From the NCBI GenBank assembly GCA_964036195.1, contig OZ038456.1:5270001-5334000 (forward strand): DNA of 64,000 nucleotides, in the 5' to 3' direction. The notes under the pieces are model-generated. The model worked only from the letters and a program-made list of their open reading frames with translations. It was not told the DNA's origin and made no database searches. This DNA comes from Sphaerolaimus hirsutus (Eukaryota > Nematoda > Chromadorea > Monhysterida > Sphaerolaimidae). The position numbers and the translations under genes were made by a program. This document shows, one piece after another, positions 30,003 to 51,748 of the stretch (positions are counted from its first letter, which is position 1; every line of letters starts with the position of its first letter).

Positions 30003-30811
30003 TAGGGTTCAAACGATATATCGTATTGAATATCGAATATCGGATATCGACCATTTTTTAATATCAAATATCAAATATCGATATCGAAAATTTTGAAAAA
30101 ATATCGAATATCGAATATCGATAGCGAAAATTTTTAAAAAATATCGAATATCGATATCGAATATCGACCATTTTTTCGATATATCGAACCTGTATTGTGT
30201 CCCCAAATTTACTTTTCATTTTCATTTTGAGATGTTTATGGTTGATCTGATGTGCTTATAGTATTGTATTTGATGAGTAAAAGTACAGTATTTATAATGT
30301 CATTGTTGTTGGAGTGCTAAATCTGAAGCCAGAAAACGCTGATATACTTTTTTTGCAACATGCCCTTAAGCAATTAGGTTAGGATGAACTGTAATATCTA
30401 CCAATTGTTATTTGTCTGATACACTTTGATTCATCATGTTTTTCTTCTATTTTCTACCATTGAGTGATGTAAAGCTTGTTAAAATCACTCGCACCATTCA
30501 AATTTCAGTAAAGAGATGATTAAACATGTGTGCAACCACATGAAAATACAATATGCCACTTGAAATATGCCTTGCTATACCAAAAGCATATTGCAATATT
30601 GAATATCGAAAATATCGAAATATCGAATATCGAATATCAACCATTTTTCAATATCGAATATCGAATATCGATATCGAGGTTCCATATCGTATCGATATCA
30701 AATATCGCGTTTCAGAAAAAAATATCGAATATCGAATATCGATATCGAAAATTTTGAAAAAATATCGAATATCGAATATCGATATCGAAAAGTCATATCG
30801 TTTGAACCCTA
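30003..30811. mobile_element. hAT-like TAGGGTTCAAACG element with ATATCGA interior (809 bp), absent from copy A
   Basis: TAGGGTTCAAACGATATATC to ATATCGTTTGAACCCTA with a perfect 8 bp target duplication ctcttaac (29995-30002, 30812-30819). Copy A has the single empty site at 20754-20761. Arms of ATATCGAATATCGA repeats flank an AT-rich core (30190-30590) with no recognisable transposase. Confidence 0.95.
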
Positions 30812-31181
30812 CTCTTAACGTCACTCTTGACTTTTATATTGATTTTCCACTTGTCATTTTGGTCTACTTTTGAGTTTGCTCTACACTCCACTTTACTTTT
30901 AACATGCCAGTGTGATTTTACGTTACTCTTAACTTTTGACTCTTTACTTGTCCATTTGTGGTATTTACTTGGGTTGGGTTCATTTTCATCCGTGTAGACA
31001 CTTCATATCAGCTGCTTTCGTAAGATTTTCAGAGCGTGCATACTACAGGATTAGCTAACGCACACTTCATGAAACATGCAGCATATTTATTTACCTGATT
31101 GTGAGGTTGTGTATTCGCAGAATATCTGTAGAATATCTGCACTACAGAGATGTTGCATGACAAGTGCACAATAAAGGTATA

Positions 31182-31460
31182 CCGAAATACCCCCAGGGGT
31201 GTATTATTGCACCATCAAATTTTGAATGGGGTTAATTCAAGGGGGCTTATTCGAATTTCGAGGGCAGGGTTTATTATTTCGCCAGAATGTATTATGAAAT
31301 TCCATTATTTGACATATATATATATATTCAGATTCAGAAAATCCGACAAAATCAGTCATAATAAGCATCTATAAGCATATACCTAAAGGAATAAGGTATA
31401 AGCCAGGGGTATATATTCAAAGGGGGGTCAATTCAAGGGGTGTAACTCGAGAAAATACGG
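31182..31460. mobile_element. Degenerate CCGTATTT-family MITE
   Basis: CCGAAATACCCCCAGGGG after TA; right end CTCGAGAAAATACGG. Contains GGGGTTAATTCAAGGGGG and a short AT-rich core. The right flank is AA, so the terminal TA is lost. Confidence 0.65.
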
Positions 31461-33194
31461 AACATAATTTTTTGTGTGTGTACGCTGTTCAACCAAATCG
31501 CCCTCAACTATCACTCACATGAAACCTAGGCCACCGTATTGGTAAAGCAATCAACTTTTAGCTATCTATGAAATAGCTTTTAACATTCACCATCACATGT
31601 ATTGAACTGATAGATAAAAAAAGAAGAAGTATATATCACTTTTACAGAAGTATATATCTCTTCAGAGAAAGTTAAAAAAATTTGAGAAATGAAATAATGC
31701 CATAAATATTTATGCCTGAAATTAACTGTGACTGTAATCTATAGCCATATTTCAAATAGGCAGAATGTATGGATGTCTTAAAGAAATTTGTAAAGAAATA
31801 ACTGCTTTCATTGTAATTTAAGTGTGCTCTGAGACCTGTCCATTTTCATCATTTTACCTTGTGCTAGTGACAACAAATTTTCAGTTATCGACAGGAACAG
31901 TATCACCCTATTTACTCATTTTCACACATTTCTGTTATCTCATTGACTATTCAACATTCAGCATTATAAAGTAATCTTTTCACATTCATGAGCTGAAATG
32001 AAAAGCCGGTCAAATGAGGAAGTATTTATGTATAACATACATATTCAGTTCATGTGCACTTCATATTCACATGCATTTAATTTTCTATTCATGATAAATT
32101 TCCACCCTTTTTCGGATAGAATTGATGGGAAACTATGATTATCATGAAACTATGGGAAACTATGATTGAAAAATGGCTGAGTTTGTGGAAATGTAATTAA
32201 AATTATATAAAAATATAAATTAAAATATTATTACCTAATCTCAGAAAATCTTAAGCAAATTTATTATCAAATCTCTGAGAAAATCTCTCACAGTTAAAAA
32301 CAAGCTCAGAAAATCTCTCAACTGAAATTTTTATTTGAATTGGTTGTTTCGTGGTCTTTGAACTATTTATTTAGAGGAATTAGTTATTATTTAATGCATT
32401 GCTCACTTTTCATTCGCAATTTCAAACAATAACAACAACATATATTTAGTATACTGATATGACAGCACACCATAGTTGCAAAAGTGTATTCACACTTACC
32501 AAAAATACCTGGGTATTTCATTTGGGTATTTATATTTACACTTACACTTTCATAAAACACCCTTACTTACGTTTTGTTACACTTTCCTAGCCAAAATACT
32601 CGGGTATTCACTGCGAATAGTCAATTCCCTTCTCAGCAAATGCACTATTCCCATCCCATCCAAAATCTCCCCGGCAAAATATTCTCTCCAGGGGAGTGCC
32701 GTTTGTATGGATAGCCACTCACTTAGTCAGCTGATGTAACAAGCCGAAAAATGTTTACAGACAGTGTTTTTTTATGCTCGCTCAAAATTAGATGGATCCA
32801 CAGTTCGCAAACACACAAACAGTAGTTGACATCGCAAATTCGTGTCAACTGGATGTCATGTGGGCCGAATATTGGGCTCACACCACGGGATCAAGTTTAA
32901 TTTATAAAAATGGCAAAATGCCATACATAACCATGTGGCGAAATGACATTTGAAATATCACAATTTCTTTTGCGAATTTATATTCGATTATTTTCAATCC
33001 CAACAAAAACCGCAATAGCATTTTTCCATGAGCAATAATACAGCGACCATTTGCTTAAACCAGTACACAAGGTGCGTAGTGCATAAATACATGCCTACTT
33101 TATCACGATCCATCAACAGTTGGATAAGCATTTACTAACGATGACAACCCCTCTGGAAAAAAAGTATTTAAATTTTTAAGTTTTTTTTCTTCTA

Positions 33195-33545
33195 AAATGA
33201 CTTTTCGAATTTAGCAGAATACTTTGAACCTATGGGGAGAGTGGTGTGCGCTACACTTGTTCCCAGTAAAGAAAAAAGTGGGTTATGGTAGAAATTTTTC
33301 CAGAAAATCTCTGTTTTTGTGAAACTGCGTCACTCAACCGTATCCTAATCTTACAGTAATACCGTAATATTATGACATCATTGGGACATAAGTATCAAAA
33401 TGGGACATAAGTTTCATGAAAACAGAGATTTTCCAGAAAAATTTCTACCGTAACCCACTTTTTTCTTTACTGGGAACGAGTGTAGCGCACACCACTCTCC
33501 CCATAGGTTCAAAGGCTCCAGTATTCTGCTGAATTTCATATTTTT
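33195..33545. mobile_element. Long inverted repeat (about 350 bp)
   Basis: Left arm blocks TTTGAACCTATGGGGAGAGT and AGTAAAGAAAAAAGTGGGTT recur inverted on the right (near 33510 and 33460), giving arms of over 130 bp with few mismatches around a short loop. It looks like a palindromic MITE; terminal bases and target duplication could not be fixed. Confidence 0.7.
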
Positions 33546-34266
33546 TTCCAAAGCAGTTTTTGAATTTTTGAATATAGTTTCCAGATTTTCAGAACTTTTT
33601 GATTACTTTTAGAATTTAGGAATCTAATTTTAGGACTTTCCGAATTTTATAAATCAAATTAGTCCATTCTTGATTTTCTCCGCCTAATTTTGAATATATC
33701 TTCATATTTTACAGCCTTCCGAGCTGTTACCGCAGATACATCTGCGGATGTTTTGTTCTCTTGCTACAAATAAATTCATGAAAAGTGATGATTTGAATTG
33801 CATTTCTTGGGGTGTTACACCCAATTTTCTGCCAAAAATGTTGAAAAAATTCGAAAATTCGAAAACGTTTTTGAATTATTGAATTTTTTTTGACTAAAAT
33901 TCAATTTTTATGTATTTTTTCACTGCGTGCTCAAAAATTCGAAAAGTCCAAAACAATTGAAAATTCGAAAAAGTTTTCGAATTTTCAAATTGTTTTTGCC
34001 ATCGTTAGCATTTACACAAGCGGTGCAAATGCGCCAGCGCTATGTAGTGCCTCTAAATGATAGGGTATTGACACCGTTTAGGTTCTATATAATTTATGTA
34101 TTTTAGGATCGCATGCTTTATTATAATATTTGCATGAAACCTTGCCAGATTGTGAAGAATGAATGTGTCACTTGTACAAAAGTATTTCAAATGTGCTAGT
34201 TTAAAATGCAAATGTTAGCCTACATCCAAGAAAATGGTATCAATCCATGATTTCCATCGTGTCCTG

Positions 34267-35001
34267 CAGAGTTGTTAGAATTACTGAACTTTTTTAAAAG
34301 TATATGTAAACGTATTGCTTGTGTCGGGGTAAGGCTGATCACCCTCAGCCACTCTCGGCCAAGATAGAAGGGAGAGGGGCGGAACCCAGCAATGGGTATG
34401 GCCCTAGATCTCATGTTTGCTATAATAATAATAAAAAACGTAAAGTATTTTTTTTACTCACCTCAAAGTATAGAAAACGTAAAATACTTTTTTTTTACTC
34501 GTAAATACGCGTAAATGTGGGTACTTTTTTGTGAGTGTAGAAACGACTACTTTTCTTCATAGAATGTGTGAAAGTGGGCACTTTTTCATACGTATACAGC
34601 ACAACGTATGTTTTTCTATAAGCAAATGACAGATTATATAGTTTTCAAGGTCTCTTTTTTCTAGGAGATAAAAATCATCGTTCTCCCGACTCGTTTACCA
34701 CGACCATTGTCTCCACAACCATTTCGATTTGGTTGCGAATTTTGAAATTTTTAAAGACACTACCCCCGAATATCTAAAATATTCAATGGAACCACTTCTG
34801 TAAATACATAGCAGTGTAGTTACTTTATAAATATGTCCCACATTGAATTTTCATAAATACATTTTCCGTACGCGTACGCTTTGAAAGTGTACGCGTACAA
34901 GTGCGCACGGTATTTTTTTGAAAAGTATATGTAAATGTATTTACCGAGTACTCGCGTACGCGTATTTTTCAAATAAACGTACGTACCTTTTAACAACTCT
35001 G
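34267..35001. mobile_element. CAGAGTTG-family hAT-like element with perfect 8 bp duplication (735 bp)
   Basis: CAGAGTTGTTAGAATTACTG to CCTTTTAACAACTCTG; target duplication gtgtcctg at 34259-34266 and 35002-35009. TACGT / ACGCGTAC-type arrays flank a non-repetitive core (34320-34430, 34620-34800). Confidence 0.93.
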
Positions 35002-35013
35002 GTGTCCTGGCCT

Positions 35014-35190
35014 GGTGCCAATCCCAGACCCTGTAAAATGTCAAATGTCATGCAAAGTGTCAAAGTCATGTAAAATGCCCTGCAAAATGGCAACTCGTTT
35101 GCCACCTTGCAGGGCATTTTACATGACTTTGACATTTTGCATGACATTTGACATTTTACAGGGCATTTTACAGGGTCTGGGACCGCCCCC
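35014..35190. repeat. CCCTGTAAAA-family hairpin (177 bp)
   Basis: GGTGCCAATCCCAGACCCTG to CAGGGTCTGGGACCGCCCCC; whole unit is one hairpin of TGTAAAATGTCAAATGTCA motifs. It is the simplest family member. Confidence 0.75.
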
Positions 35191-35381
35191 AGTACGGGGC
35201 ACAGTGGGCTGAAAATGTAAATGAAAGCATTAGAGCGTAAGATCCAATTTCACTAACTTGAAGATGCACTTACTCTATCTTCTATGGGTATTTTCTCATT
35301 CTGGATATCAAATTTAATCTGATTCGGACAACGTACTTTTGGGAAATTTTTTGATTTTTGCGATATTGGATACCTTAAAGA

Positions 35382-35624
35382 TAGGGTTCAAACAGGATTG
35401 ACTTGTAGGGATCGGGATCGGGATAAGTTTTCATAGATTTTGGGATCGGGATCGAGATCGAGATTGTTTTTTTTAGATTTCGGGATCGGGATTGGGGCCA
35501 CTAAGACCTGAAATTTTTCGAGATTCTGGATCGGAATGGGCTTTTTAGGTTTCGGGAGCGGGATCAGGATCACAAAATCCCGAAATTTTTCGGGTTTCGG
35601 GATCGGGATCCCGTCTGGACCCCA
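35382..35624. mobile_element. hAT-like TAGGGTTCAAAC element with GGGATC interior (243 bp)
   Basis: TAGGGTTCAAACAGGATTG to ATCCCGTCTGGACCCCA; flanks cttaaaga and cttaaaca (7 of 8). The interior is a degenerate array of TTTCGGGATCGGGATCGG. Confidence 0.85.
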
Positions 35625-35713
35625 CTTAAACACGAGCACATGAAAATATCGCATGAGGAATATAAGAGTGTTCTGCCCTTTGAATCACATGTCACATCTT
35701 TATTTTGTGTGCA

Positions 35714-35964
35714 CCGTATTTCCTCGAATTACCCCCCGAGGGGTTTATTTTTTCAGAGTGCAAATTTTGAGAGAAAAACGTAAAAAATGCAACAATAACC
35801 ACCATTTATAAGTTTTTACAGCCTTATAAAAGGATGTAGATGGTATAACGATGTTCTAATGTAACACAGTAAGTGTTTTGAACGTCTGTTATGCATTTCC
35901 CGGACCACAGATTCATAGTGCCCATTTTGAGGGGGGGGGGGGGAGGTATTTCGAGGAAATACGG
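35714..35964. mobile_element. CCGTATTT MITE (251 bp)
   Basis: CCGTATTTCCTCGAATTACC to GTATTTCGAGGAAATACGG; left flank CA, right flank TA. Its core closely resembles the 12006-12255 copy. Confidence 0.82.
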
Positions 35965-36626
35965 TAGATGCAACTGGAGTGTGTGCTTCTGGAGTGTTTT
36001 TGTCAGTTTAGAAGTTTTGTCAAATATGAATTTAAACTCGAATTTGGATATAAACTGAATGGTTTTTGAAAAAGTAAACAAATGATGTGCATTTTTCAAC
36101 CTTTTCCGAAAGTACTTTCCACTCAATTTTTAGAAATAATTTTTTTGCGGAAAAATTTCATACCCTGATTTCTCTGTTCTATGTATTGATAAATGATGGG
36201 TACCTACTCCCACAATGCTGACACCGAACACTATAGGCAAAATACCCACATTACTCATTCTTTTGCATGGTATTTCCAAACTTCCGTTTTCAATTTTCTT
36301 TATATGCATTTTTTAGATCAGCACTTTTGCATGCAGATCTCGATCATGTTTCTGAATCTCACTAAGGAGAGTCTACATTTGTCTAAAAATGGATAAAAGG
36401 AATTTCACCCCCAAACACTGTCACTTAAGTGTGAAGGAAATTATAAAAACCTTTGAATATACTTTTCTATCAAACATCTGAGGGAAGGATATATTTGATA
36501 CCTTACTTTACTATTCATACATACTATCTCAGGGTAAAGTATATCAGGTAAATATTTATGATCTTATTACTACTGTTAAATATTTAATTACTCGATACAT
36601 ATTAGGAGTGGTGTCAATGGCACAAC

Positions 36627-36877
36627 GCACACTGAAATTTTGCGTTCAGCGTTTGAACGTCTTTGGACGCTGAATTACAAACGTTGAAATCAAAATCTAA
36701 AGAATGCAATTTTTTCGAAGCGTAAATAATCGGCTCGCATGCAAATTTCACGAGATAAAATAAATTTCGAATTTTTTACGCTTAAAAAACGTTGTTTTCT
36801 CTAGTTTTTCATTTCAGCGTTTGTAGTTCAGGAGCGTTGAAAAACGTTCGAACGCTGAACGCTTAATTTCAGTGTGC
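36627..36877. mobile_element. Palindromic MITE, GCACACTGAAATT ends (251 bp)
   Basis: GCACACTGAAATTTTGCGTT to AACGCTTAATTTCAGTGTGC, with GTTCAGCGTTTGAACGT inverted inside. Copy D equivalent: 59020-59270. Target duplication not clear. Confidence 0.75.
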
Positions 36878-37550
36878 GGTGCGCGTGCGGCAATGTGCCT
36901 GCACACACAGTTTTCACCGTGACTTCGTGTGAAAACTGAAATTTTTTCAAATACAAATTAATGAACACGGTTGAATGATTTGATTTGATTCAAATTTGAA
37001 TTTAAATTAATGAAAGTTAAAATTTGTAAATTTAAAAACTAGAACACATAAAGCATACAATGAGAGTAGGCTGGATGTCGCCATGTGGCCATTTCAGTTT
37101 TCACATCAGTCACGGTGAAAACTAGTGTGTGTAGGGCCAATGGAACAAATTGCACTGCCGACTTTTATTTTCTGTTGGGTACATTTCTGTCATTTAATTA
37201 GAATGCACTTTCTTGAGAGTCTACTACGTAGCAATTACCGGTATTTGAACCTAATTACGTACTGCATATAAATACCGGTTTATTCAGGTATTTATTTATA
37301 TATTTAATTTTTGATTAAATATCATGGTAAATTTGATGTGTCTGTCGTTCCAGACTCCCTTTATCTGAAGCTTAATATCGGATTTATGTAAATTTATTAC
37401 TGTGACAGAATTCTGGCCGACCTTACTAACATCACCTAGCCAATTTCATTTTGGGATAATATCTTTACCACCGGCATCGCGGTTGCATCCATTAATTGTA
37501 ATGTCACATCACAGGTGCTATTTATACATTGGTTGTTGTCGCGCACGCAT

Positions 37551-37772
37551 GGGGGCAGTCCCAGACCCTGTAAAAGACCCTGTAAAATGTCATGTGTATC
37601 CAAATCTTATGTTTGTGATCTTATGTATCCCGATCATATGTTTTTGTATCCAAATCTTATGTACAAATGTAAAATCTGGATACGAAAACATGAGAGATAT
37701 ATAGTATAGAATAATATTTACATGACACATTGCATTTTACACGGTATTTTACAGGGTCTGGGACTGGCACCC
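37551..37772. repeat. CCCTGTAAAA-family inverted repeat, copy C
   Basis: GGGGGCAGTCCCAGACCCTG to CAGGGTCTGGGACTGGCACC. Inner CCAAATCTTATGTT palindromic core as in 19591-20040. Copy D equivalent 61078-62073 is split by a Mutator-like insertion. Confidence 0.75.
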
Positions 37773-37987
37773 GACAAGTGGTAATAGGTATGCATTTATA
37801 ATATCGTGAACGGAAAGAAATCAACCAAGTACAGATGCAAATTAATTCTGGCTCAATCCCGTAGGATGTCTTATTGCATATCAGCAGAATGACAATTGTG
37901 TTATTCCGGGCACATTCGGAATGACCTATCTGCATCTGCATACATACATATGCAAATGACCACATTGCACCCCCATGGAAGCAGGTA

Positions 37988-39204: not shown

Positions 39205-39691
39205 AACAAATAAGCGCCGCTACATGACCAGCGGGTAAAATTACATGGCGGCAGAGTCTACATGACCGGCGGGTTACATTACATGGCCGTCGTGCAAGTG
39301 AACATTGTTTGCTTGCTTTTGGGTATTTTTCAGGAAATTTTTCTGTTTGTCTTTTTCTTTTCAGTGCAGAGTTGTACAAATACTGGTATTTTTGGAAAAC
39401 GTAAACGTAAACGTAAATACCTTTTTCAAATCAAAAGTATAAATACTAAAACGTAAGGTATTTTTAAAATACTGGGGAAAACGTAAAAAAAACGTAAACG
39501 TAAAAATTATATTAAGTGCTTCCGCTATCAGAGAATACAAAAAAACACAATGTTTTTTTTACAACATTATGGATGTTCATGTGATCTCCATCGATATTTT
39601 CTGCTTACCTGCATTTTATATATATATATTTAGAATGATGGGATCGGGAGATTGAATTCGGATTGGAGTTGACATTTTGCGTCGTTGTCAA

Positions 39692-40345
39692 TAGGGTGTC
39701 AAATTTCCGTTTTCCGTTTTCCGTTTCCGTTTTCCGCAGGCAAATTTTTTCCGTTTTCCATTCCGTTTTCCGGCTGCTGAAATTTTTTTTCCGTTTTCCG
39801 TTCCGTTTTCCGGCAACTTTTTTTCCGTTTCCGTTTTTCCGGCTCATTTTCCGTTTTCCGGCTAAATTTTCAGTTTTTCCGCCTTTTTTCTGTTTTCCGC
39901 CTCAATTTCCAGTTTTTCTGCCTTTTTTCCATTTTCCGCCTCAATTTTCCATTTTTCCACCTCATTTTACCTTTTTCTGGCCCAACTTTCTGTTTTCTGA
40001 TCAGCCAAACTGGTAAAAATTCATGCAGATTGTCAATGACGTGAAAAATTTTCTGTTTGCAGCAAAATTACTGCAAATTTTTTCCACTTCCAGCAAAATT
40101 TCAGCAAATTTTATCCATTTTCCGGCAAAATTTCAGCAAGTTTTTCCATTTCCGTGCTAATTTGATTTTTCCGTTTCCGTTTTTCCGGCCTCTTTTTCCG
40201 TTTTCCGGCCGCTGAAAATTTGTTTCCGTTTCCGTTTCCGTTTTCCGCCAAGTGCAATTTTTTTTCCGTTTTCCGTTCCGTTTTCCGGCCGCTGAAAAAT
40301 TTTTTCCGTTTCCGTTTTCCGTAGAAAATTTTTTTTGACACCCTA
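39692..40345. mobile_element. hAT-like TAGGGTGTCAAA element with CCGTTTTCCG interior (654 bp)
   Basis: TAGGGTGTCAAATTTCCG to TTTTTTTGACACCCTA with perfect 8 bp duplication gttgtcaa (39684-39691, 40346-40353). The whole interior is TTTTCCGTTTTCCGGC-like repeats in both directions. Nested inside the 39367-42351 element. Confidence 0.93.
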
Positions 40346-40367
40346 GTTGTCAACTAGTGGGTGTAGG

Positions 40368-41392
40368 TAGTGATGTGAAAGCGCCATGGCGCTGGCGCCT
40401 GGCGCTAGCGCCAAAGCAAAAAGCGCCATGGCGCTTTTGGCGCTTGACGCTAAAATGCTGTGGCGCCATTGGCGCTTGGCGCCGTGTTTCCGAAAAGCGC
40501 CATGGCGCTTTTGGCGCTTGGCGCTACTTTCCAGTGGCGCTATTGGCGCTTGGCGCTGCCATTTTTTGAAAAAGCGCCAGAGAGTGATAATTGCGCCGCG
40601 GTGTTCCTGTGCCTTATTGCCTATTTTCAGCAATCTTTCGCCATGTAAAATTTATGTAATTATTTTACATAGGTAGGTATTTTACTCAGATATGTAATTG
40701 GTAGCTATTTTTACCCTGTTATCTCACAGTTTGCACTTTAAACCTTGAAATATCCAATAGATTGAAACACTGCAATGCAACCCCCAACCCCCAGACAATC
40801 TTTCAGCTTCCACCACTTCATAGAGGCAATTTGCTATCTATTTGAACCAGTCTTAGTTACACTTGTGTGTTGAGCAAGACAACTTATTGATTTCCATTAT
40901 TTGACCATTTTTGTGTTTTTGGAGGCAATACAAGTTATTGAAAGTGAATAAAATAGTATACTCCAGCGACATTACACCTTACAATGAAATCTACCATATC
41001 CCATCTGAATAAAAGAACTAACATAAACTTTTTTTCATCATATTTATCAAAGCAATTTGATAAATATGATGAAAAAATGTTATGGTAGTTCTTTTATTCA
41101 GATGGGATATGGTAGATTTCATTGTGAGGTGTAATGTCGCTGGAGTATAATACTTTGTCTCACCTGTATCATTAAAGGCAAAATCATTTTGGCGCTGGCG
41201 CTATTGACGCTTGGCGCCATGGCCCCCTGGCGCCTTTGGCGCTTGGCGCTAAGGTCCAGAAAAGCGCCATGGCGCTTTTGGCGCTTGGCGCCATTTTGCT
41301 GTGGCGCCATTGGCGCTTGGCGCTAGAACCGGAAAAACGCCATGGCGCTTTTGGCGCTTGGCGCCAAAAGTCTGGCGCTTTTTACATCACTA
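40368..41392. mobile_element. Composite hAT-like TAGTGATG element (1025 bp), nested
   Basis: Perfect 8 bp duplication ggtgtagg (40360-40367, 41393-41400). Left end TAGTGATGTGAAAGCGCC, right end GGCGCTTTTTACATCACTA. GCGCC arms (40368-40580 and 41190-41392) flank a core that contains a hairpin at 40958-41146. Confidence 0.92.
40958..41146. repeat. Near-perfect 189 bp hairpin in the core of a hAT-like element
   Basis: TACTCCAGCGACATTACACC is complemented by GGTGTAATGTCGCTGGAGTA, with GAAATCTACCATATCCCATC inverted inside. Half-copies of the ATTCAGATGGGATATGG block occur at 42786 and 63920, so it is a MITE family of its own. Confidence 0.85.
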
Positions 41393-41423
41393 GGTGTAGG
41401 GCCTTAAGGTGCTAATACCGTTA

Positions 41424-41871
41424 TGCTGCGATTACAGCTCTGGCGTAAAATTGTCTGGGCATAAAATTGATTCTGGGCATAAAATTAATTACAGATGAAT
41501 GGATAAAGATACGACATTGTTATTTCAGTCAAAGAAAGCTTAGATGCAGACGTTTCTTGTGTTCTAAACTCATGAGTTTTTTTCAATTGTACTGTGAGTT
41601 ATGAATTTTAGCAAAAATTTTTCAATTATGTGCATGCACTGTAGGTTGTGCAAAATTGGGGCATAAAATAAAAAAATTTGCTCCAAAATTCATAACTTCT
41701 AGTACAATTAAAATAAACTGATGAGCTTTGGACACAAGCAACATCTGCATGTGCGCTTTCTTTGACTGAAATTACAATGTCATATCTTTATCCATTCACC
41801 TGTAATTAATTTTACACCCAAAAATCAATTTTACGCCCCGTTAATTTTACGCCCGAGCTGTAATCGCAGCA
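41424..41871. mobile_element. PIF/Harbinger-like palindrome, second copy (448 bp)
   Basis: TGCTGCGATTACAGCTCTGG to CGAGCTGTAATCGCAGCA. Flanks TTA on the left, TAA on the right. Closely related to 38103-38530, with a matching inner region (GTCAAAGAAAGC, ACACAAGCAACATCTGCAT). Confidence 0.8.
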
Positions 41872-41875
41872 TAAC

Positions 41876-42123
41876 AGGAGAACTAAACAAAATTAATGAG
41901 TGAGAGTAGTAATGGCAGGTTGAAAGGCAATAAAAATTGAAAGAAAAGTAAATTTGTAAGTGAAATGGCAAGTTAAAAGACAAATGGCCAGTCATGAGAA
42001 AACACTCAAAATGACTTTTTATTTGCATTTCAGTTCTCCCTCACAAAAATAATTTACTTCAACTTTTCACTTTTCACTTACAAATTGGTGTTTCAGTTCT
42101 CCAATTGCGGAATTAGAACTCCT
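41876..42123. mobile_element. Palindromic MITE, AGGAGAACTAA ends
   Basis: AGGAGAACTAAACAAAATT on the left is loosely complemented by AATTAGAACTCCT on the right; inner AGTGAAATGGCAAGTTAAA blocks recall the GCCAGTTCCGC element at 10422. Old and diverged. Confidence 0.5.
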
Positions 42124-42870
42124 CAACATTAGAACATGTTGAACTAATCATATTACACTACATTTGTCAAACAATACGGTTCCTTGTAGCATATTTTTAC
42201 GTTTTCTCTGGTACCCGGGTAATTGTGCCAGGAAAACGGTAGTAACGGTAATGCGTAACGGTATTTTTGGAAAGCGTAAACGTAAACGTAAGTATAAATA
42301 CCCGAATAACTGGGTATTTCGGGTAAACGTAAATACGTTTTCGCAACTCTGTTTCAGTGTGCCCACAACAGAATGGGTTTGTGGTTCTATTCTCCCACCA
42401 TTTGATTTTAGAAAGGGTAAAATTTTTGTTTCTATTCAGCTTTTATGAAAAACATGTTTGACTATTGGGCCAGTTAGAAGCGACCAGTGAAAGGTTCTCA
42501 ATTGAAGGGGGCACTTTTTTAAGACTTAAAGTTTAAGTTCAATATACAGTGAAAGAATGTGCTTATGATATCAGTAATCAAACACATTTTCTACATGTTC
42601 TACCCAAAAATGGTTCAGGAAAAGTCAAGCTTTTTTACCCGATAAATATACTGATTGGACCTACGCTAAACAATGGGTTTTGGTATATTTTGAGGAATAA
42701 TGTCACTTGAAAAAGTATACACTTAATTCACCCATAGATGGAGCAATGTCAAGTGAATTCAGAAGAATAAAAACAGATTGCTTTTTATTCAGATGGGATA
42801 TGGTAGATTGAAATGTGAAGTGTTCGTTCAGTGCAGCATATGGCTGATGTGTGTAAGTTATGAATGAATG

Positions 42871-43861: not shown

Positions 43862-44535
43862 CAGAGTTGCGAAAGCGTATTTATGCTTACCCGAAATACC
43901 CGGGTAAATGGGATTTATACTTACGCTTACGCTTACGCTTTCATAAAATACCCATACGCTTTATTACGCTTTCCCGGCCGAAATACCCGTGTACTCAAAG
44001 CGTAAAAAAGCTTTACACATGGTACGGTTTTACACTCTTGAAAAATTGTAAAACCACAAAAAAAGAAAGTGAACAAAACTGCGTACCTAAATAAAATGAC
44101 TGTGTGTGTGCACTGTGCAGTATTGCACTGGAAATACCGACACATGTACAAATTGTGTCGCAATATGAATGTCATGTTAACACTGTGTCGTGGCTTTAGA
44201 TTAGACATTTAGGGGACAAAAATGGATTCCGACGACGATGTTGTCGCCGTCAAGAATATGACAAGTTAGATAATGAATCTGATTTAAGTGATGAATGAAT
44301 TGCCATAAGCATCTAAGGGCAGACTACCACGTCTGAAAAATGTTGCTGAGAGCCTGATTTTGGAAGAATTCACTGAGAAAAACCATCTTCAAGTTTTTTA
44401 CGCTTACGCTTTTTTTACGCTTTCCTAGGTATTTTAAAAATACCTTACGGTTTCTGTATCCATACTCAAAATTTGGAAAGTGTATTTACGCTTACGCTTA
44501 CGATTTCCAAAAATACCGGTATTTTAACAACTCTG
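43862..44535. mobile_element. CAGAGTTG-family hAT-like element with perfect 8 bp duplication (674 bp)
   Basis: CAGAGTTGCGAAAGCGTATT to GGTATTTTAACAACTCTG; duplication caatgttg (43854-43861, 44536-44543). Arms are GCTTACGCTTACG and AATACCCGGGTA repeats; the core has a short frame starting ATGGATTCCGACGACGATG at 44222 that stops after 15 codons. Confidence 0.94.
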
Positions 44536-44604
44536 CAATGTTGATGCGCACGTTTGGCGCTCTCATTTCATACTGCACCATCTCTGGCATCATTTTATCA
44601 CTAC

Positions 44605-44909
44605 TAGTGATGTAACTTTGGTGCCAAGCGCTATGGCGCTTTACCGACCGCCAGCGCCAAGCGCTAGCTAAGCATGGCTCCCAGAAGCGCCATGGCGTTT
44701 TATGCTTTAGCGCTAGCGCCAAGCGCCAGCGCCATGCATTTTGTTCCCGCCGCGCGTCAAAAATAGCGCCAAGCACGAAAAGCGCCACGGCGCTTTTGAT
44801 GGGCATGTCGCCAAGCGCCAATGGCACCATAGCAAAACAGCGTCAAGCGCCAAAAGCGCCATGGCGCTTTTTGCTTTGGCGCTAGCGCCATGGAGCTTTT
44901 ACATCACTA
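44605..44909. mobile_element. hAT-like TAGTGATG element with perfect 8 bp duplication (305 bp)
   Basis: TAGTGATGTAACTTTGGTGC to GGAGCTTTTACATCACTA; duplication atcactac (44597-44604, 44910-44917). Nearly all interior is AGCGCCAAGCGCC-type repeat. The target itself resembles the element's own end (TCACTAC). Confidence 0.93.
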
Positions 44910-45273
44910 ATCACTACCATGCTAAAATTTTGAGAATTTTTTTCATCGGGCGTTCCGGAAGCGAGAGCAGTATCCATTAACGTAGAACATGCAGTATCCC
45001 CAGTATTTATCATCGTGTATACTGTGGGAGAAAAAACACATGTAAAAAGCAACTGCATTTTAGTGCTGCGCAGATGGTTTTTAGGAATTACTATTGAACA
45101 CGGGTTCAGTCATGCATGTCCAGGCATTAGGCTGTTTTCATATGACAATGTTTGCATGTGTTCAATATTTTGTTGATTATTAGGGATGTATTTGTTTAGT
45201 ACCTTGAACGCCTTCGGCCAGGGCTTAGAGACGGATCCATTATTGTTTATAGAAATGTTCAAGGAAAAATATA

Positions 45274-45561
45274 CCGTATTTGCTCGAATGATTCCCCTGG
45301 GGAATTTTTTTGTCAGGTTTTTCGGAGGGTGGAACTATTCGAGGAGGAATTATTCAAGGGATTCAAGGGATAAAGTCAGTCCACAAAATATTCTTTATAA
45401 ACAGAATAACATGCTATTTTTGTTCAAATTGGATCACACAAATTGATCATATGTCCAGGGGGGATTATTCAAGAGATAGTAATTTTTCCTCACTCGTCTT
45501 ACAATGGGGAATTATTCAAGAGAGGGTGTTATTCAAGGGGGAATTATTCAAGCAAATACGG
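45274..45561. mobile_element. CCGTATTTGCTCGAATGATT MITE (288 bp)
   Basis: CCGTATTTGCTCGAATGATT to ATTCAAGCAAATACGG, TA flanks; TTCAAGGGGGAATTATTC subterminal blocks and an AT-rich core. Confidence 0.88.
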
Positions 45562-45908
45562 TAATTTTGCACCAATTAGCGGAAAGTGCATAAATGTGCA
45601 CAATATTTGTAATCCCAAAACGTCTGTACAGGGGTGGGCATCTTCAGTTAACGCTGGAAAATTGCAATAGCTTGAGCTACGGTTGCGCTATCACAATGGA
45701 ATTTTAACACAATAGAGTAGACTCCATAGGACACCTATTCTGAAGTTTGCAGCCCAAACAGCCACATTTTGGGGTCAGTTGTGGAACACACAGTTTTTAG
45801 TGTAATTTTGTGACTTGGTGTCACCCATTGCTTGTTGTTCATTGAGTGGAAGTGTTTCAAAAAGTTGTTTTTTTAACTTCATATCACTCAACACAGTCAC
45901 TACAACTA

Positions 45909-46260
45909 TCACTCGATATATCCACCATCCTTCTCCAAAATCATATTCAAACGGTTCTCGAATGACATGAGAGCTTTCACCCTGATCTCAGTGCTCAACT
46001 CTTCGAATGACTCCTTAATCACCTCAATCAACATGTAGGGTTCAAACGGGATTGACTTTTCGGGATCGGGATTGGTTTTTTGAGATTTCGGGATCGGGAT
46101 CGGGATCCCGTTTGAACCCTTTCAACATGTCAACTGTGTCAAATGTTGTATTCTTGCTGTAGACAAGCTGCTTGACATGTCCCCATAGCCAGTGGTCACA
46201 GGCTCAGATCTGGTCACTGTGCCGGCTATGCTGGCCATGTTGCAATAAAAAGTCTGCATG
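45909..46260 (-). pseudogene. Mariner-like (IS630/Tc1 superfamily) transposase C-terminal fragment, broken
   Basis: Minus-strand frame from 46200 reads CDHWLWGHVKQLVYS and then NTTFDTVDML, matching the conserved PDL(S/T)PCDFFLWGHVK region after the last catalytic Asp of these transposases. Upstream to 46260, WPA and PDLS are seen in another frame with stops, so it is frameshifted and decayed. An 86 bp hAT-like insertion (46036-46121) interrupts it after DML; if it and one flank copy are skipped, the frame continues IEVIKESFEELSTEIRVK to a stop at 45909. The N-terminal and central catalytic parts are missing. Confidence 0.75.
46036..46121. mobile_element. 86 bp hAT-like TAGGGTTCAAACG miniature element inside the transposase remnant
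   Basis: TAGGGTTCAAACGGGATTG to CGGGATCCCGTTTGAACCCTT with perfect 8 bp duplication tcaacatg (46028-46035, 46122-46129). Interior is GGGATCGG repeats. One of the smallest complete-looking insertions in the window. Confidence 0.93.
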
Positions 46261-46840
46261 CCATAACTCACCCAAAATGTGGCCATTTAAGCTGCAAACT
46301 TCAGAATATGTGTTCTATGGAGTCCACTCTATTGTGTTAAAATTCCATTGTGATAGCTCAACCGTAGCTCAAGCTATTGCGATTTTCCAGCATTAACTGA
46401 AGATGCCCACCCCTGTATTATTCGAATCGGGTCAGGTTATTTCGGGTCGGGTCGGTTGGCGGTTCCCTTCCCAACCTATGATGATATAAATATTTTCATA
46501 CCGTGTTACCAGCTCCAATTGTAGTCATAGATCCAATAAAAGGCACCCTCAAATAAAAGGTGCTAATTTTGGCCTTTTTGAATGTGATGAGATAAATAAT
46601 AGGCATGCCTCTTATGGATGTTATACCTCCAATAAAAATCACTGCTGGCTGCGTGCCAAATCGTAGAAGGGGCAAAACATGGCGGCCAACAATGAAAATA
46701 GTGCAGATGCAGAACGGGCCCCAATTCAACCCTGTGTCAACTTGTGTTAGGATTAGCCTGGTTCACCATTTTGTTACATTCCTGTTTGATAAAATGAATT
46801 GCGTTGTTGTTCACTGTTGGTTCACTGAATGGGCCCACAC

Positions 46841-46983
46841 ACGCTAGTTGACATCGACACGAAATGTCAACTGGTGCCGATCCCAATTCAAAGCTTGCTG
46901 ACGAGTGGACGAACAACGTTCAAACGCAATCTTTGAATTAGGAACGGAACCAGTTGACATTTGGTCTCGATATCAACTAGCGT
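46841..46983. mobile_element. Small palindromic MITE, ACGCTAGTTGACATCG ends (143 bp)
   Basis: ACGCTAGTTGACATCGACAC is complemented by CTCGATATCAACTAGCGT with AAATGTCAACTGG inverted inside. A fragment with AGTTGACATCGCAAATTCGT lies at 32824. Confidence 0.65.
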
Positions 46984-47315
46984 ACCACGGTTTGTGAACT
47001 CCTTTGTCCCTGCAAAATATTTGTAGTCGGATGATCCTTTAATCTTGTATTTACACATAAATATGTAGAACATCTGACATAGCTGACGCAACAGTGCCAG
47101 ACATAATATTCACTATGAATTCTACCAGTAAAATGTCTAAAGTCTCCGGCTCCAGTACTTGCGGTAATTTCACGGATACGGTTCAAAGATTTACAGTGGC
47201 GCCGACATTGCAAATTAGTAGCCCTTCCGTCAGTTTAGTTCATATTTTTGTTCATGTAAATTAATATTGAGTGCACTGAAATGAATCGAATGGCTGTGCG
47301 CCGGGTGCGGTACAT

Positions 47316-47782
47316 CAGAGTTGTTAAAACGTATTTACGTTTACTCGAGAAAAACGTATACTTGAGTACTGAGTAAATACGTGTACGTTTCTTCCGAAAA
47401 AAAACGGTACTCACCTTGACGTGTACGTTTTAAAGGTATGCTAGATGCAAGCAGAAAAATGTATCTTAAGGGACATTTACAGACATTACCGTTAACTCGA
47501 AAATAAATAAACCTAGAAGAAATGCATAATATATTCCTTACAAATACTTATCAAGTCAAAAAAGTGTCTTAAAAACGTAGAGTTGGAAAAATACTCACTT
47601 TTACGTTTTTTTTGTAAGAAAATATAAACACGTTTACGTTTTCCCTGAAAAAAATATTTTACTCCCCTATTACGCAGTGTAAAAGTTTGACTTTACATTT
47701 TCTGTACACAGGGGTGAGTAAAAACAAAATACTCCACGGTTACTTTTACTTTCGAAAAACTTCAGTACTTTCAACAACTCTG
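47316..47782. mobile_element. CAGAGTTG-family hAT-like element (467 bp)
   Basis: CAGAGTTGTTAAAACGTATT to TACTTTCAACAACTCTG; flanks cggtacat and cagtacat (7 of 8). TTTACGTTT / ACTCGAGT arrays in both arms. Confidence 0.88.
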
Positions 47783-48010
47783 CAGTACATGTGCTAACCA
47801 ACATTAATTTCTAACAACGACATTTTTAACGATAATGAACGAACATCAATTCCAACATGCAAACTTCCCCAACCCCTCACAATCAAACCAGACGCACCAC
47901 CAGCCACCCACACCGACGCACCACAGCAAGCACCAGCAATATCACCGGCATTCCACATCGTCAGCCCATGGCAGCAGACTGGCGCTGACCTGTCAGCAAC
48001 AGGACACCAT

Positions 48011-49033
48011 GTGGCAGTCCCAAACCCTGTAGAAGAGCCTGTCGAGTGTGAAGGATCTGGCAAAATGTGAAAGGCCCTGCAAAATGTCATATGTTATGAA
48101 TGAGAACTGTAAAATTGCAGGTGTCATGTAAAAGACCATGTGAATTGTAAAGTGTCATGTGTATGGAAATCTGATTGTATCGTATCCAAATCCCTGGGTT
48201 TGGAGTAGGGTGTCAAAAAAAATTTTTAACGGAAAACGGAAACGGAAAAAAAATTCAGCGGCTGGAAAACGGAACGGAAAACGGAAAAAAATTTGCACTT
48301 GGCGGAAAACAGAAACGTAAACGGAAAAAATTTTTCAGCGGCCGGGAAACGGAAAAAGGGCCCGGAAAAACAGAAACGGAAAAATGTAATTTGCACAGAA
48401 CTGAAAAAATTTGCTGAAATTTTGCTGGAAAATGGAAAAAATTTGCTGAAATTTTGCTGCAAGTGGAAAAAATTTGCATAAATTTTGCTGGAAAGAGAAA
48501 AAATTCACATTATTGACAATCTGCATTAATGTTTACCAGTTTGGCTGTAACAGAAAACAGAAAGTTGAGCCAGAAAAAGGTAAAATGAGGTGGAAAAACG
48601 GAAAATTGAGGTGGAAAATAGGAAAAAAGTGGAAAAACTGGAAATTGAGCCGGAAAATGGAAAAAAGATGGAAAAACTAAAAATTTGGCCAGAAAACGGA
48701 AAATCAGCCAGGAAAACGGAAACGGAAAATTTAGTGGCCGGAAAACGGAACAAAAAACGGAAAAAAAATTTCAGCAGCCAGAAAACGGAACGGAAAAACA
48801 TTGCCTGCGGAAAACGGAAACGGAAAACGGAAAACGGAAATTTGACACCCTAGTTTGGGGTCGATACAGTGAGATGTGGAGTTGGAGGAGTCGATATAGT
48901 GAATACACATGACACTTTACAGGGTTTTTTTACATGACACTTGTCACTTTACAGGGTATTTTACATGACACCTGACATTTTACAGGGCTTTTTACACTTT
49001 ACAGGTTCTTTTACAGGGTCTGGGACTGCCCCC
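48011..49033. repeat. CCCTGTAAAA-family inverted repeat split by a hAT-like element
   Basis: GTGGCAGTCCCAAACCCTGT to CAGGGTCTGGGACTGCCCCC. The ATCCAAATC palindromic core is interrupted by 48206-48852. Followed by a GC-rich 260 bp segment and a second unit at 49300-49473. Confidence 0.65.
48206..48852. mobile_element. hAT-like TAGGGTGTCAAA element with CGGAAAACGG interior (647 bp)
   Basis: TAGGGTGTCAAAAAAAATT to GGAAATTTGACACCCTA; flanks gtttggag and gtttgggg (7 of 8). Same family as 39692-40345, in reverse orientation, sharing the inner AGTTTGGCTG...CAGAAAACAGAAAG centre. Open frames rich in Lys, Glu and Asn come from the repeat. Confidence 0.9.
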
Positions 49034-49299
49034 GTGTCTAGTCACCATCGCTACGCCAAGCGCCGGTCCATGGACCAGAGCAGATGTTCAGTTCCCGATT
49101 CACACGACCACAGCGCCGCACACCAATTGTTCTCCTTCGCTAGTCGCAGGGGGCTCGCTGGGCCCGATTCCAAATTGAGGAGTTCCAGTCTGTGGCTGGC
49201 CGGGTCGCGGGGGCAGAGCGGGACAAGGAGAGGTGCCGTTGCATTGGGAGATGAACTGCCGCAGGGGGCTAGGGTGCAGGTGCCAATCGCACATGTTGT
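49034..49299. other. GC-rich segment between two CCCTGTAAAA repeats
   Basis: Open on both strands (plus frame within 48941-49423) and much richer in G+C than its flanks. No recognisable domain. The layout parallels 20041-20278, so it may be cargo picked up by the CCCTGTAAAA element. Confidence 0.35.
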
Positions 49300-49473
49300 A
49301 TATTGCCCTGTAAAATGTCAGATGTCACGCAAAGTGTCTAAAGTCATGGAAAATACAATGCAAAATGGCAACCTAGTTGCCATTTTGCAGGGCATTTTAC
49401 AGAACTTTAGACACTTTGCATAGCATTTGACATTTTACAGGGCGTTTTACAAGGTCTGGGACTGCCCCCAGGG
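49300..49473. repeat. CCCTGTAAAA-family hairpin
   Basis: GCCCTGTAAAATGTCAGATG folds against CATTTGACATTTTACAGGGC; right end GTCTGGGACTGCCCCCAGGG. Closely similar to 35014-35190. Confidence 0.7.
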
Positions 49474-50112
49474 CAGAACTCGGTCCATTCACTCGATTAT
49501 GGATTTAGTTCAGGGTAAGTGTTTGATGTGTTTATTTTTATCTCTTTGTGAAGCACCGGTTTTTTATTTGTAGTGCATCAGTTTTTGAGCAAGAGATTTT
49601 AAAGCACAATTTGAATCTCTAATTATTATTTTGCTATGGAAATAAATAACTTTATTTTGATCATTTAATTTATCATGTTGTGTTTCTCCCAGCTTACGTT
49701 CTACTTAAAAATACTACATGGTATTTAAAACTTAACCAGTTATTATTGGCTCATCTGACTACGCAAGTTGCAAGGCATATTTGATTTTGGTTCACAACAT
49801 TACATTGTTACATTTTTCTATTTTATACTGTGTTGTAACATTTTTATATTTACCTAGCTTAACCCGTGTTCGTTTACATACACAAATGTATATGTATGAT
49901 GTCATTCAGGTACCGTATTTCTTCTAATAGAAGAGCGCCATTCTATTTTTTCGTCAACTTTTTACCTGTCATTCTATGAGAGTTGCCGTTCTATTTGTTT
50001 CACCAATATTTTTCAGACAATTTTCATCTAAACATAGTGTTTTTAATGAAACATTAGGTAATAACATTTTACTATCAGAGCGTCAATTCAAACAAAACCA
50101 AATGTGAAAATA
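49474..50112. other. AT-rich stretch with a partial TTCTAATAG MITE
   Basis: CCGTATTTCTTCTAATAGAA starts at 49913 with GCCATTCTATT blocks but no matching right end. Otherwise nothing was recognised. Confidence 0.45.
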
Positions 50113-50359
50113 CTGTATTTCCTCGAAATACCCCCCTCGAAATACCTCCCCGTCTCGAACTACCCCCCCCCCCCCCTCAAAATGGACACTATGAAATAAT
50201 TACCCACCCCCTCGAATTACCCCCCAAATTGAGTGTACAGAGAACGTACATAAGAAAACTGTGGTTTGTGATTCGGGCAATGCAAGGCACACGTTAATAC
50301 AATGAATTGTTTAAGTTAGAACATTCTTACACACTGAAATCAGTCAATAGACTTTTATA

Positions 50360-51748
50360 TAGGGTGTCAAATTTCCGTTTCCGCGTTTCCGCAGGAAAAT
50401 TTTTTACCTTTCCATTTTCCGGCAGCTGAAATTTTTTTACCTTTCCGTTTTCTGTTTTCCAGCAGCTGAAAATTTTTTACCTTTCCTTTTCCATTTTTCC
50501 AGGACGTTTTTCCATTTTCTGGCTCGATTTTCAGTTTTCTGGCATTTTTCCATTTTTTTCCAATCTGTATTTATCTTTTTCCACTATGGTGTTTTTTTCT
50601 ACCAGGTTCTTGTGTCATTCATAATTTTTATCTGTATCCAAATCTGTATCAGACATGCTCACAAAGACGTGAAGAGAGAGACATGCTCACAAAACTCAGA
50701 GTCAAGATGTTTGCTGCCAATGGCTCGATTCTGCTTGGAGATCCCAACTACCTGGCCAGTCTGCGCAACATCACCACGCAAACTGATTTGGCTCATTTGT
50801 CAAACTGCGACATCAAGTTACGACCACCTGCCTATTGATTTGGGAAGACTGCTGATTCTGCAAATGTTGCCGAATGGTCAAGCCCTCATGCAACACATCA
50901 AGAAGAGTGCAGCAGAAGTCCAAGTCGATGGATGTTGGATAAAAGACCTGCTGTCAATGCAAGACGTGAAATTTGTTCATTTGATTGAGGAAACTCTTTT
51001 GTGTATAAGTTTTTCTGTTTTACCATGCAAACATTGTTCAGATGGTTTTTGTAACTTCAGATATGTGAAACTTGTAAACTCTGTTGTATCTCTTACTTTT
51101 TTATGATTATCCAAGGTCATATAATCCTGTTACCTCCTGAGGAGTTGAGTAGTAGTGTAGATGGGGTTATTACCAAACCCACAATTGTTATGTTTCAAGT
51201 GCACACCATCTGTGACCTTTTGTGATGCATGTTCAGTTCAGCACTGTGCAATAAACTTGCTCTCCCAACTGTGTCTTGGGGTTGTGGGCCCCCGTGTCAA
51301 CCCACATCTACTCCAACTTTATTGTTGTTATAGTGTATTTTTGCTACCTTTTGATGATTTTTTGTTGGTTCAGTTAAGCTTGAACTACGAGTGAAGTTAC
51401 TGGCATGATCCATAGTTGCAGAATGTACAGCTACCACAATCAAAGCCAAACAGGCAAACCTGCATGCAAATTTGTCCATTTCCATGCAAATTTCACTTTA
51501 TTTTTTCCGTTTCCGTGAAAATTTTGCTTTCCGTTTTTCGTTTTCCGGCATTTCATTTTTCCATTTTCCGTTTTCCAGCTGATAATTTTTTACCTTTCCG
51601 TTTTCCTGTTTTCCGCTGAGTGAAATTTTTTTACCTTTCCGTTTTCCGTTTTCCGGCAGAATTTTTTTTTTACCTTTCCGTTTTCCGTTTTCCATAAAGT
51701 GAAATTTTTTTACCTTTCCGTTTCCGTAAAAAATTTTTTGACACCCTA
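50360..51748. mobile_element. hAT-like TAGGGTGTCAAA element carrying unidentified coding-like DNA (1389 bp)
   Basis: TAGGGTGTCAAATTTCCG to AATTTTTTGACACCCTA; flanks cttttata and ctcttata (7 of 8), and ctcttata is what other copies of the host MITE have at this point. CCGTTTTCCG arrays at both ends flank a non-repetitive core (50590-51480). Confidence 0.9.
50683..51106 (+). pseudogene. Unidentified gene fragment inside a hAT-like element (frameshifted)
   Basis: A frame from ATG at 50683 reads FAANGSILLGDPNYLASL and on to a stop at 50838; an overlapping frame then reads LILQMLPNGQALMQHIKK and AAEVQVDGCWIKDLLS before becoming AT-rich. Base composition and residue mix look like real protein, unlike the repeat-derived frames around it. 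It may be the element's own decayed transposase or a captured host exon; no motif decides. No splice sites were confirmed. Confidence 0.35.

Follow-up and report, generated by a model that had tools for sequence, protein, structure and literature searches.

Repeat-bearing ends are common among hAT transposons (PMC10368747; here and below, statements on published systems draw on parts of the papers cited), and the required ends measure 200 and 150 bp in Tol2, about 100 bp in Tag1, at least 200 bp in Ac and about 220 bp for Hermes in cells (PMC10368747). Here we describe hAT-like elements with repeat-bearing ends in a 64,000-bp stretch of the nematode Sphaerolaimus hirsutus (assembly GCA_964036195.1, contig OZ038456.1, positions 5,270,001 to 5,334,000 of the forward strand; hereafter the window), mainly within its positions 30003-51748. 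The elements have five kinds of tip, which we call A (TAGGGTTCAAAC), B (TAGGGTGTCAAA/C), C (TAGTGATG), D (CAGAGTTG) and E (C/TAACGATGG), and the A tip fronts three array types: A1 (ATATCG), A2 (CGGGAT) and A3 (CGGGAC). What sets these otherwise ordinary hAT ends apart is their density, their great abundance and the switch of motif under a single tip.

The closest described systems share parts of this structure. Maize Ac/Ds elements have 8-bp target duplications, 11-bp tips, short and filler-bearing derivatives (Ds1 and Ds2) and transposase-bound AAACGG repeats in the terminal 200 bp (PMC3260210), and AAACGG is also among the commonest 6-mers of the B ends. Unlike in Ac/Ds, the repeats here are denser (median 19–41 exact units per element in A–C, 19–35 in the A types), and three motif types occur behind a single tip. 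Hermes of Musca domestica resembles the present elements in the C-terminal homology of its transposase, in its ~220-bp ends and in repeats that are mainly antisense on the left and sense on the right: left repeat 1 is sense, left repeats 2–7 are antisense and right-end repeats are sense ('sense' being taken as inward from the tip), and left repeats 1 and 2 form a quasi-palindromic pair that is bound cooperatively by two BED domains (PMC10368747). The Hermes repeats are, however, AAG(T/C), in 17 and 14 copies, and the relevant part of PMC10368747 describes no motif-switched sister families. Tol2, which we liken by description and not by sequence, has repeats in its ~200/150-bp required ends and a perfect palindrome right after the left tip, but a single motif (PMC10368747). 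In Herves of Anopheles gambiae, also a hAT, CG/AATTCAT is repeated at both ends, a direct repeat suffices for transposase binding and 100-bp tandem repeats occur in one end; it differs in being a single family, for which the cited part of PMC3143072 describes no shared-tip motif variants. Galileo and Foldback-like elements likewise have several THAP transposase sites in repeat-bearing ends, but Galileo belongs to the P superfamily and has long inverted ends (PMC3688188), whereas the non-palindromic arrays here are unidirectional.

On the protein side, the BED-type fingers of hATs diversify readily, with CGG/CGC or AT-rich targets, as in the CGGBPs and ZBED1/DREF (PMC8097297, PMC6179265). hAT-derived proteins usually prefer CGG or CGC, with a motif that differs readily, and for four hAT proteins the motif corresponds to subterminal sequence of each protein's own element (PMC8097297). 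DREF recognises TATCGATA through its BED finger (PMC6179265). CGG is present in the A2, A3 and B units and CGC in the C unit, and the DREF site matches the A1 unit. The CGGBPs and ZBED1/DREF differ from the present case in being mostly host proteins, for which motif change was inferred from proteins and not from replaced DNA sites (PMC8097297, PMC6179265). In the parts of the open-access literature that we covered, we recognised no report of several entirely different arrays behind a single hAT tip.

The searched genome comprises 348 Mb in 762 contigs, and exact tip words were counted on both strands, the reversed word serving as the control. The A tip occurs 16,617 times (reversed word 37), the B tip TAGGGTGTCAAM 12,164 times (reversed word 55) and the C tip followed by GCGCCA within 3–25 bp 26,002 times (reversed word 48), a figure in which one tip may match repeatedly; the counts cover these three tips. 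Because one element normally has two ends, copy numbers amount to at most roughly half of the tip counts. Where a preliminary description of this stretch had reported two different arrays under the A tip, we find three: 8,784 A tips genome-wide are followed by RGGATH (A2), 3,241 by GATAT (A1) and 2,335 by GGGACC (A3), each against 0 for the reversed word, and the remaining 2,257 match none of these words. Type A3 was first met in L005:1501-2357 and L028:2878-3016.

We collected 82 elements for closer comparison: 64 from the window and loci L001–L076, selected for a target duplication with no more than one mismatch, 14 A elements taken solely by their pairs of tips, and four merged B elements. 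The duplication in the 18 elements added by tip only has at most one mismatch in 14 and is exact in 13. Loci L001–L008 and L047–L091 come from the start of contig C1 (L047–L076 picked by the TAGGGTGTCAAM tip, the rest by the A tip), and L009–L036, L045–L046 and L093–L102 were picked for carrying an exon match; since loci were chosen by C1 start, tip or exon match, the sampled subfamily proportions are not genome proportions. L087 was omitted because its end is clipped by the fetch coordinates.

The A elements were typed by their commonest 6-mer. In the terminal 200 bp, ATATCG, CGGGAT and CGGGAC units stand at 229:0:0 in A1, 0:165:5 in A2 and 1:2:194 in A3; the sorting builds in part of this purity but does not account for how nearly absent the other types are. 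The two ends are of the same type in 23 of 24 A elements, and in the exception (L078) other sequence replaces the second end right after the tip. The 29 listed tip pairs from the C1 start include 14 A2/A2, 6 A3/A3 and 5 A1/A1 pairs and none that mixes A1, A2 and A3, the other four having one end outside all three exact words.

Units differ among the A types while tip, spacer, inverted pair and polarity persist. Counted inward from the tip at the two ends, sense and antisense units number 81:2 and 13:71 in A2, 103:3 and 12:77 in A3, and 348:9 and 0:319 in B; counted on one strand by element half, they number 111:1 and 94:15 in A2, 111:3 and 85:14 in A3, and 397:1 and 384:0 in B. Units that are sense when read inward from one tip are antisense from the other, so these arrays run one way and are not mirrored, and the strand counts give no sign of a Foldback or long-inverted-end character. 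Nor are the arrays satellite DNA, which would lack transposon boundaries; tips and duplications bound them. The orientation of A1, C and D is unreadable because their units are palindromic or nearly so. Four elements that pass on their tips (two in L035, one in L037 and window 39367-42351) were removed from the tally of motif coverage and of strand by element half as other families, chance or the host of nested insertions; the window element is still counted as D in the palindrome tallies.

A one-ended inverted pair of the element's own unit stands at the tip in all seven A1 elements (CGATATATCG), in 6/7 A2 elements (CGGGATCCCG, or a longer or one-base variant), in 5/10 A3 elements (CGGGACCGCGGTCCCG or similar) and in 5/10 D elements, and AGCGCCATGGCGCT-like tip pairs occur in 5/8 C elements; one-ended palindromes appear in 2.4–5.9% of family-wise shuffles of A, C and D, the range for A and C being 2.4–4.9%. 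In consensus ends, built without L078 and without elements <200 bp, the right-hand tip of A is followed by a single unit, a T-rich spacer and a unit cluster, in that order. The spacer, TGACTTTTC in A1 and A2 and AGTTTTTC in A3 (GACTTTT-like), is found at exactly one end in 7/7 A1, 7/7 A2 and 9/10 A3 elements, and a similar one in 4/8 C elements. In all 24 element-exon pairs the transposase exon reads away from the left-end signature, a 25th hit being a B element nested in C; the signatures of B, D and E were set after reading the sequences. All three traits of the Hermes/Tol2 type (extent, orientation and tip pair) occur together in A2, and also in A3 with some pairless copies, and B has the extent and the orientation without a tip-adjacent pair of its own unit.

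It had also been proposed that the array turns over faster than the tip. Three arrays behind one tip agree with this; on the other side, ATATCG arrays also sit behind the variant tips TAGGGTTGGAAC (L095), TAGGGTTGGGAC (L096, tip recognised by eye) and TAGGGTTCGGAC (L102, where they lie between tips two letters off A), so that tip and array vary separately. Two further loci bear on array motifs. L030:322-2361 has a C tip with GGCACC/GGTGCC units in place of GCGCCA, possibly a second motif under TAGTGATG, and hosts a complete B element; it was handled apart for its GGCACC array and the nested B. In L019:1086-2474, an A1 element, we noted a nested insertion with CAGGGACGTAGCCAGG / CCTGGCTACGTCC ends and GGCGCC units.

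Array strength was measured as the commonest 6-mer against 40 dinucleotide shuffles per element, or 20 shuffles for each of 26 control segments of the window. The commonest 6-mer exceeds all shuffles in 24/24 A, 27/27 B, 10/11 C, 9/11 D and 9/9 E elements, with median ratios to shuffled sequence of 5.1, 4.4, 4.9, 2.1 and 2.0, respectively, and 1.5 in the controls. As 17 of the 26 control segments also beat their shuffles, the ratio is the telling figure, and by it the A, B and C arrays are unmistakable and those of D and E modest; in several CAGAGTTG elements the top-ranking 6-mer is AAACGT/AACGTA. CpG occurs in the units of 7/8 array types, and the ends have a CpG frequency of 0.043–0.106 (observed/expected 1.0–4.6) against 0.025 (0.66) in the rest of the window; the exception is the CAACGATGG type (frequency 0.018, observed/expected 0.87). 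The excess may reflect finger preference alone or methylation-sensitive recognition.

hAT tips follow the consensus YARNG, and the tips here, beginning TAGGG, TAGTG, CAGAG and CAACG/TAACG, all agree with it. Dimer_Tnp_hAT has 28 matches in the genome, many of them inside complete A1, B, D and E elements. In the C-terminal region, the exon of B aligns with Hermes transposase structures (E 2.5e-8) and there keeps a Glu that we take to be the catalytic one. The C-terminal exon is the only transposase exon seen in the elements, and an uninterrupted open frame of at least 300 aa occurs in none of the 82, the longest (290–291 aa) being reverse-transcriptase-like cargo. Over 60 aa, the exons of A1 and B share 53% identity; identity to the exon of D element L012 is 37% for E and 38% for B; the E exon is 45% identical to L011, which is 60% identical to L012; and an exon relic in A3 element L085 shares 50% identity with the A1 exon over 30 aa. 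Searched against the genome (E up to 10), the A1 exon gave at least 150 matches, the best 150 of 407 candidates being scored, with a weakest E of 0.08. Of ten of these places looked at more closely, three (L093, L094 and L099) are complete A1 elements and L098 is a complete B element; the exons of L095, L096 and L102 go with the variant-tip arrays described above, that of L097 adjoins ATATCG units without a recognised tip, and L100 and L101 show no array. Judged from sequence, the exons in A, B, D and E copies mark these elements as non-autonomous hAT transposons of related families.

The window was scanned for an 8-bp duplication around an inverted 11-bp tip, with noise gauged by duplications at four shifted offsets. 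The scan recovers 30003-30811, 33136-34007, 34267-35001, 39692-40345, 47316-47782, 48206-48852 and 50360-51748 with 0–1 mismatches in the duplication. It is noisy by itself (25 hits against 10, 14, 3 and 11 at the shifted offsets), so that support for the elements rests on genome-wide tip recurrence. Positions 30003-51748 hold 11 top-level elements (9,212 of 21,746 bp), and the whole window holds 15 (12,750 of 64,000 bp). The annotated features are as follows, with the strand given where one was assigned; the last four elements lie outside 30003-51748.

30003..30811, + strand: A element, type A1 (ATATCG); duplication CTCTTAAC exact; palindrome end (LE) at 30003
about 30024-30185 and 30588-30800: arrays of the A1 element 30003..30811
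30296..30376, + strand: decayed hAT C-terminal (dimerisation) exon in the A1 element; 64% over 28 aa, E 2e-4, against the L017 A1 exon
33136..34007, - strand: E element (TAACGATGG), TTCGAA-type end; duplication GCATTTAC exact; long palindrome by the 34007 tip
34267..35001: D element (CAGAGTTG); duplication GTGTCCTG exact; weak array CGCGTA
35382..35624: A element, type A2 (CGGGAT), 243 bp, all array; one tip decayed; duplication CTTAAAGA / CTTAAACA
39367..42351: D element, host of nested B and C; duplication TTTCAGTG exact
39692..40345, + strand: B element (TAGGGTGTCAAA), one-strand TTTCCG array; duplication GTTGTCAA exact
40368..41392, + strand: C element (TAGTGATG), GCGCCA arrays at both ends; duplication GGTGTAGG exact
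43862..44535: D element; duplication CAATGTTG exact
44605..44909: C element, 305 bp, all array; duplication ATCACTAC exact
46036..46121, + strand: A element, type A2, 86 bp, all array; duplication TCAACATG exact
47316..47782: D element; duplication CGGTACAT / CAGTACAT
48206..48852, - strand: B element, one-strand array; duplication GTTTGGAG / GTTTGGGG
50360..51748, + strand: B element, array ends and non-array interior; duplication CTTTTATA / CTCTTATA; ends match those of the 1,971-bp B element L064+L065
59311..60444: E element (CAACGATGG), ends AAACTCA / GTTTCCGTG; duplication GTTGTCAC exact
12555..13455: C element; duplication AATGGTAG exact
6088..7262: C element; duplication GTATAGAC exact
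1866..2193: C element; duplication CTCATAAC / CGCATAAC

The scan, the recurrence of the tips and the hAT exons in A, B, D and E together bear out the hAT-like elements with 8-bp duplications of the preliminary description. The tips and motifs that it named do occur in the window, with two corrections: TACGTAAA is hardly repeated (one forward and four reverse occurrences in 64 kb), and the CAACGATGG element that it placed within 30003-51748 lies outside that span, at 59311-60444. The elements are in part nested, D 39367-42351 hosting B 39692-40345 and C 40368-41392 side by side. Within this C element sits a 181-bp hairpin-like insertion (40963-41143; tips CCAGCGACATT, duplication AGTATACT / AGTATAAT).

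The interiors had been described as largely or wholly made of array. This holds for the short elements of 86, 243 and 305 bp and fails for those of at least 700 bp, in which the array falls to near zero by 250–300 bp. Extent per end was measured in elements of at least 700 bp, allowing gaps of up to 70 bp. In A1, A3, B and C elements of this size, motif coverage is 0.27–0.52 to 150 bp from the end and at most 0.04 past 250 bp; A2 has only two such elements, in which an internal array persists. Median extent per end is 164 bp in A1 (n=6), 198 bp in A2 (n=2), 189 bp in A3 (n=5), 204 bp in B (n=16), 212 bp in C (n=5), 115 bp in D (n=5) and 114 bp in E (n=9).

Short B copies can be compared with longer ones directly. 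B elements of 522–567 bp (L051, L053, L074 and L075) correspond to about the first ~210 and the last 258–296 bp of L029, a 1,126-bp exon-bearing B element, at 81.5–92.9% identity. The window element 39692-40345 matches the exon-bearing L009 at 95% in its left and 88.5% in its right end, with a degenerate stretch left between. The interiors of longer copies hold hAT exons, a reverse-transcriptase-like fragment or other filler, much as in maize Ds1 and Ds2 (PMC3260210). The proposal that arrays had expanded until they made up the element is thus contradicted by a per-end extent that is roughly constant in A–C and by array-only B copies that consist of the two ends with the interior lost or replaced, although some limited true expansion exists, as in the A2 element L089, where a stretch of ~400 bp is present three times. 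As a side observation, B elements of 1.84–1.98 kb (L064+L065, L066+L067 and L049+L050) recurrently carry the reverse-transcriptase-like cargo, which looks BEL/Pao-like by eye and matches RVT_1 at E 2.1e-4, below the Pfam cut-off.

Our results are probably best explained by non-autonomous hATs whose repeat ends are bound by BED fingers, with finger specificity switched under a shared tip and with array-only elements arising mainly through interior loss, as Ds from Ac. An element would then consist of a short tip cut by the transposase core and up to ~200 bp of repeats per end, with a dispensable interior, and a multimeric transposase would grip the many subterminal repeats cooperatively through its N-terminal BED zinc fingers. 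That the arrays are probable transposase-binding sites, as the preliminary description had suggested, is supported by their position in the required ends and by the resemblance to the Hermes/Tol2 layout. BED fingers would bind the arrays, each array type pointing to a transposase of different finger specificity, and the TAGGGTTCAAAC lineage would have gone through two or more changes of this specificity (CGATAT, CGGGAT and CGGGAC). Because the fingers and the core would recognise separate parts of the end, a change of finger would call for new sites but could leave the tip as it is. Copies in which many sites had acquired the new unit would have been mobilised and multiplied; both ends would have had to match, and the spacing scaffold would have been kept. 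A stronger version, which we hold tentatively and with slightly more doubt than belief, is that the lineage re-coded its own recognition at least twice, the tip staying fixed while BED target (CGATAT, CGGGAT and CGGGAC, in some order), sites and inverted pair changed, giving three mutually insulated transposition systems that coexist in thousands of copies. If so, tip and array would be separate and separately evolving address labels. A bolder extension of this recoding would be that most array types carry CpG because recognition reads CpG methylation.

Other explanations account for parts of the data. Gene conversion or template switching between ends could have spread a variant unit that was amplified by chance, with protein specificity unchanged; the units do act as a homogenised repeat, and A2 and A3 are one base apart (CGGGAT / CGGGAC). 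We consider this unlikely, because the order of single unit, T-rich spacer and cluster is kept though the units differ, and because the tip-adjacent palindrome changes in step with the unit, whereas block conversion should carry spacers along. Quite improbable, in our view, is a neutral expansion in which slippage or unequal exchange multiplies functionless tip-adjacent sequence: the local periodicity in TRF, the tripled stretch in L089 and an extra degenerate array in the middle of 39692-40345 would suit it, yet median extent per end is alike (164–212 bp) in A1, A2, A3, B and C, the elements retain their polarity, their spacer and the palindrome at one end, and end types agree in all but one of the 24 A elements.

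That the arrays serve host factors, or act as decoys titrating the transposase, and are not sites of the element's own transposase, would fit the CpG in 7/8 array types and the CpG-rich ends, which would suit methylation-sensitive factors; we judge it very improbable, as the position of the arrays within the known required hAT ends and their resemblance to the Hermes/Tol2 left-end layout point to the transposase. We give hardly any credence to the preliminary idea that in several unrelated families, each time independently, binding-site arrays grew to take up the whole element. The all-array elements of 86, 243 and 305 bp speak for it, but array ends are similar in size, the short B copies compared are the two ends of longer ones, and the four exon kinds are all hAT and related across families (53% between A and B, 37–38% between E or B and D), so that it is already largely contradicted.

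A number of observations weigh against the switched-finger explanation. The D and E arrays are weak, and the motif used for E misfits the two CAACGATGG elements. Single-end extents range over 0–284 bp and depend on the 70-bp gap limit, and some of the zero values come from ends with motif variants or interrupted by further insertions. A common repeat period is rejected by autocorrelation peaks at 38–40 bp in A1, 40 bp in B, 28–29 bp in A2 and A3, 74 bp in C, 48 bp in D and 20 bp in E. Tip pairs stand at both ends in 2/10 D elements; B has no tip-adjacent palindrome of its own unit (0/27), 9/27 carrying the unrelated CAAAAACTTTTTG, and E has no tip-adjacent palindrome (0/9), although 7/9 have palindromes with arms of 11–18 bp further in. 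The 24 agreements in exon direction are not 24 independent events, because family members share descent, and the left-end signatures of B and E were picked post hoc for this comparison. In Hermes, mutation of left-end repeats beyond the first 50 bp leaves ~70% activity, and binding to distal repeats is argued against by the authors (PMC10368747). The A2 and C elements examined showed no transposase exon, so that their hAT assignment rests on tip and layout. The search for an autonomous partner found no autonomous copy; zf-BED has eight matches in the genome, none placed inside these elements and none linked to any of them; and PF10683 and the RNase-H-like DDE core profile PF14372 have 0 genome matches, an uninformative result, since neither profile matched in the control genomes.

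If the switched-finger explanation holds, these ends would be a natural record of an enzyme's target change. Several lineages with a swapped motif and a kept layout are ready-made variants with which to ask (i) what role distal repeats play; (ii) how zinc-finger specificity and dozens of sites change together; and (iii) whether orthogonal hAT vectors could be built by swapping finger and array.

Other features of the window and the genome were noted in passing. A 164-aa open reading frame at 50612-51106 was considered as a transposase and rejected, having no Pfam match at E 0.1, and an Rfam search gave 0 matches. The mitochondrial COX1 has AGR at a conserved Ser, TGA for Trp and ATA at a conserved Met, consistent with the invertebrate mitochondrial code. 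A dispersed repeat occupies 19616-20815, 28890-30002 and 48047-49423, with a 31-bp TGTAAAAGACCCTGTAAAATGTCATGTGTCA-like array nearby; an open reading frame (MCRAPMASAPGVLFHG...) is common to two of these places, and the repeat may be another array-ended element. Large tandem arrays fill 53634-58528, with a 27-bp unit (CAAAAATGGCACCCCCTGGGGACCCCC) beside units of 116 and 465 bp. Short runs of CCCCCCTCGAAATA / CCCCCTCGAATAA are dispersed over the window (e.g. 11505-12247, 23946-24119 and 62529-62598).

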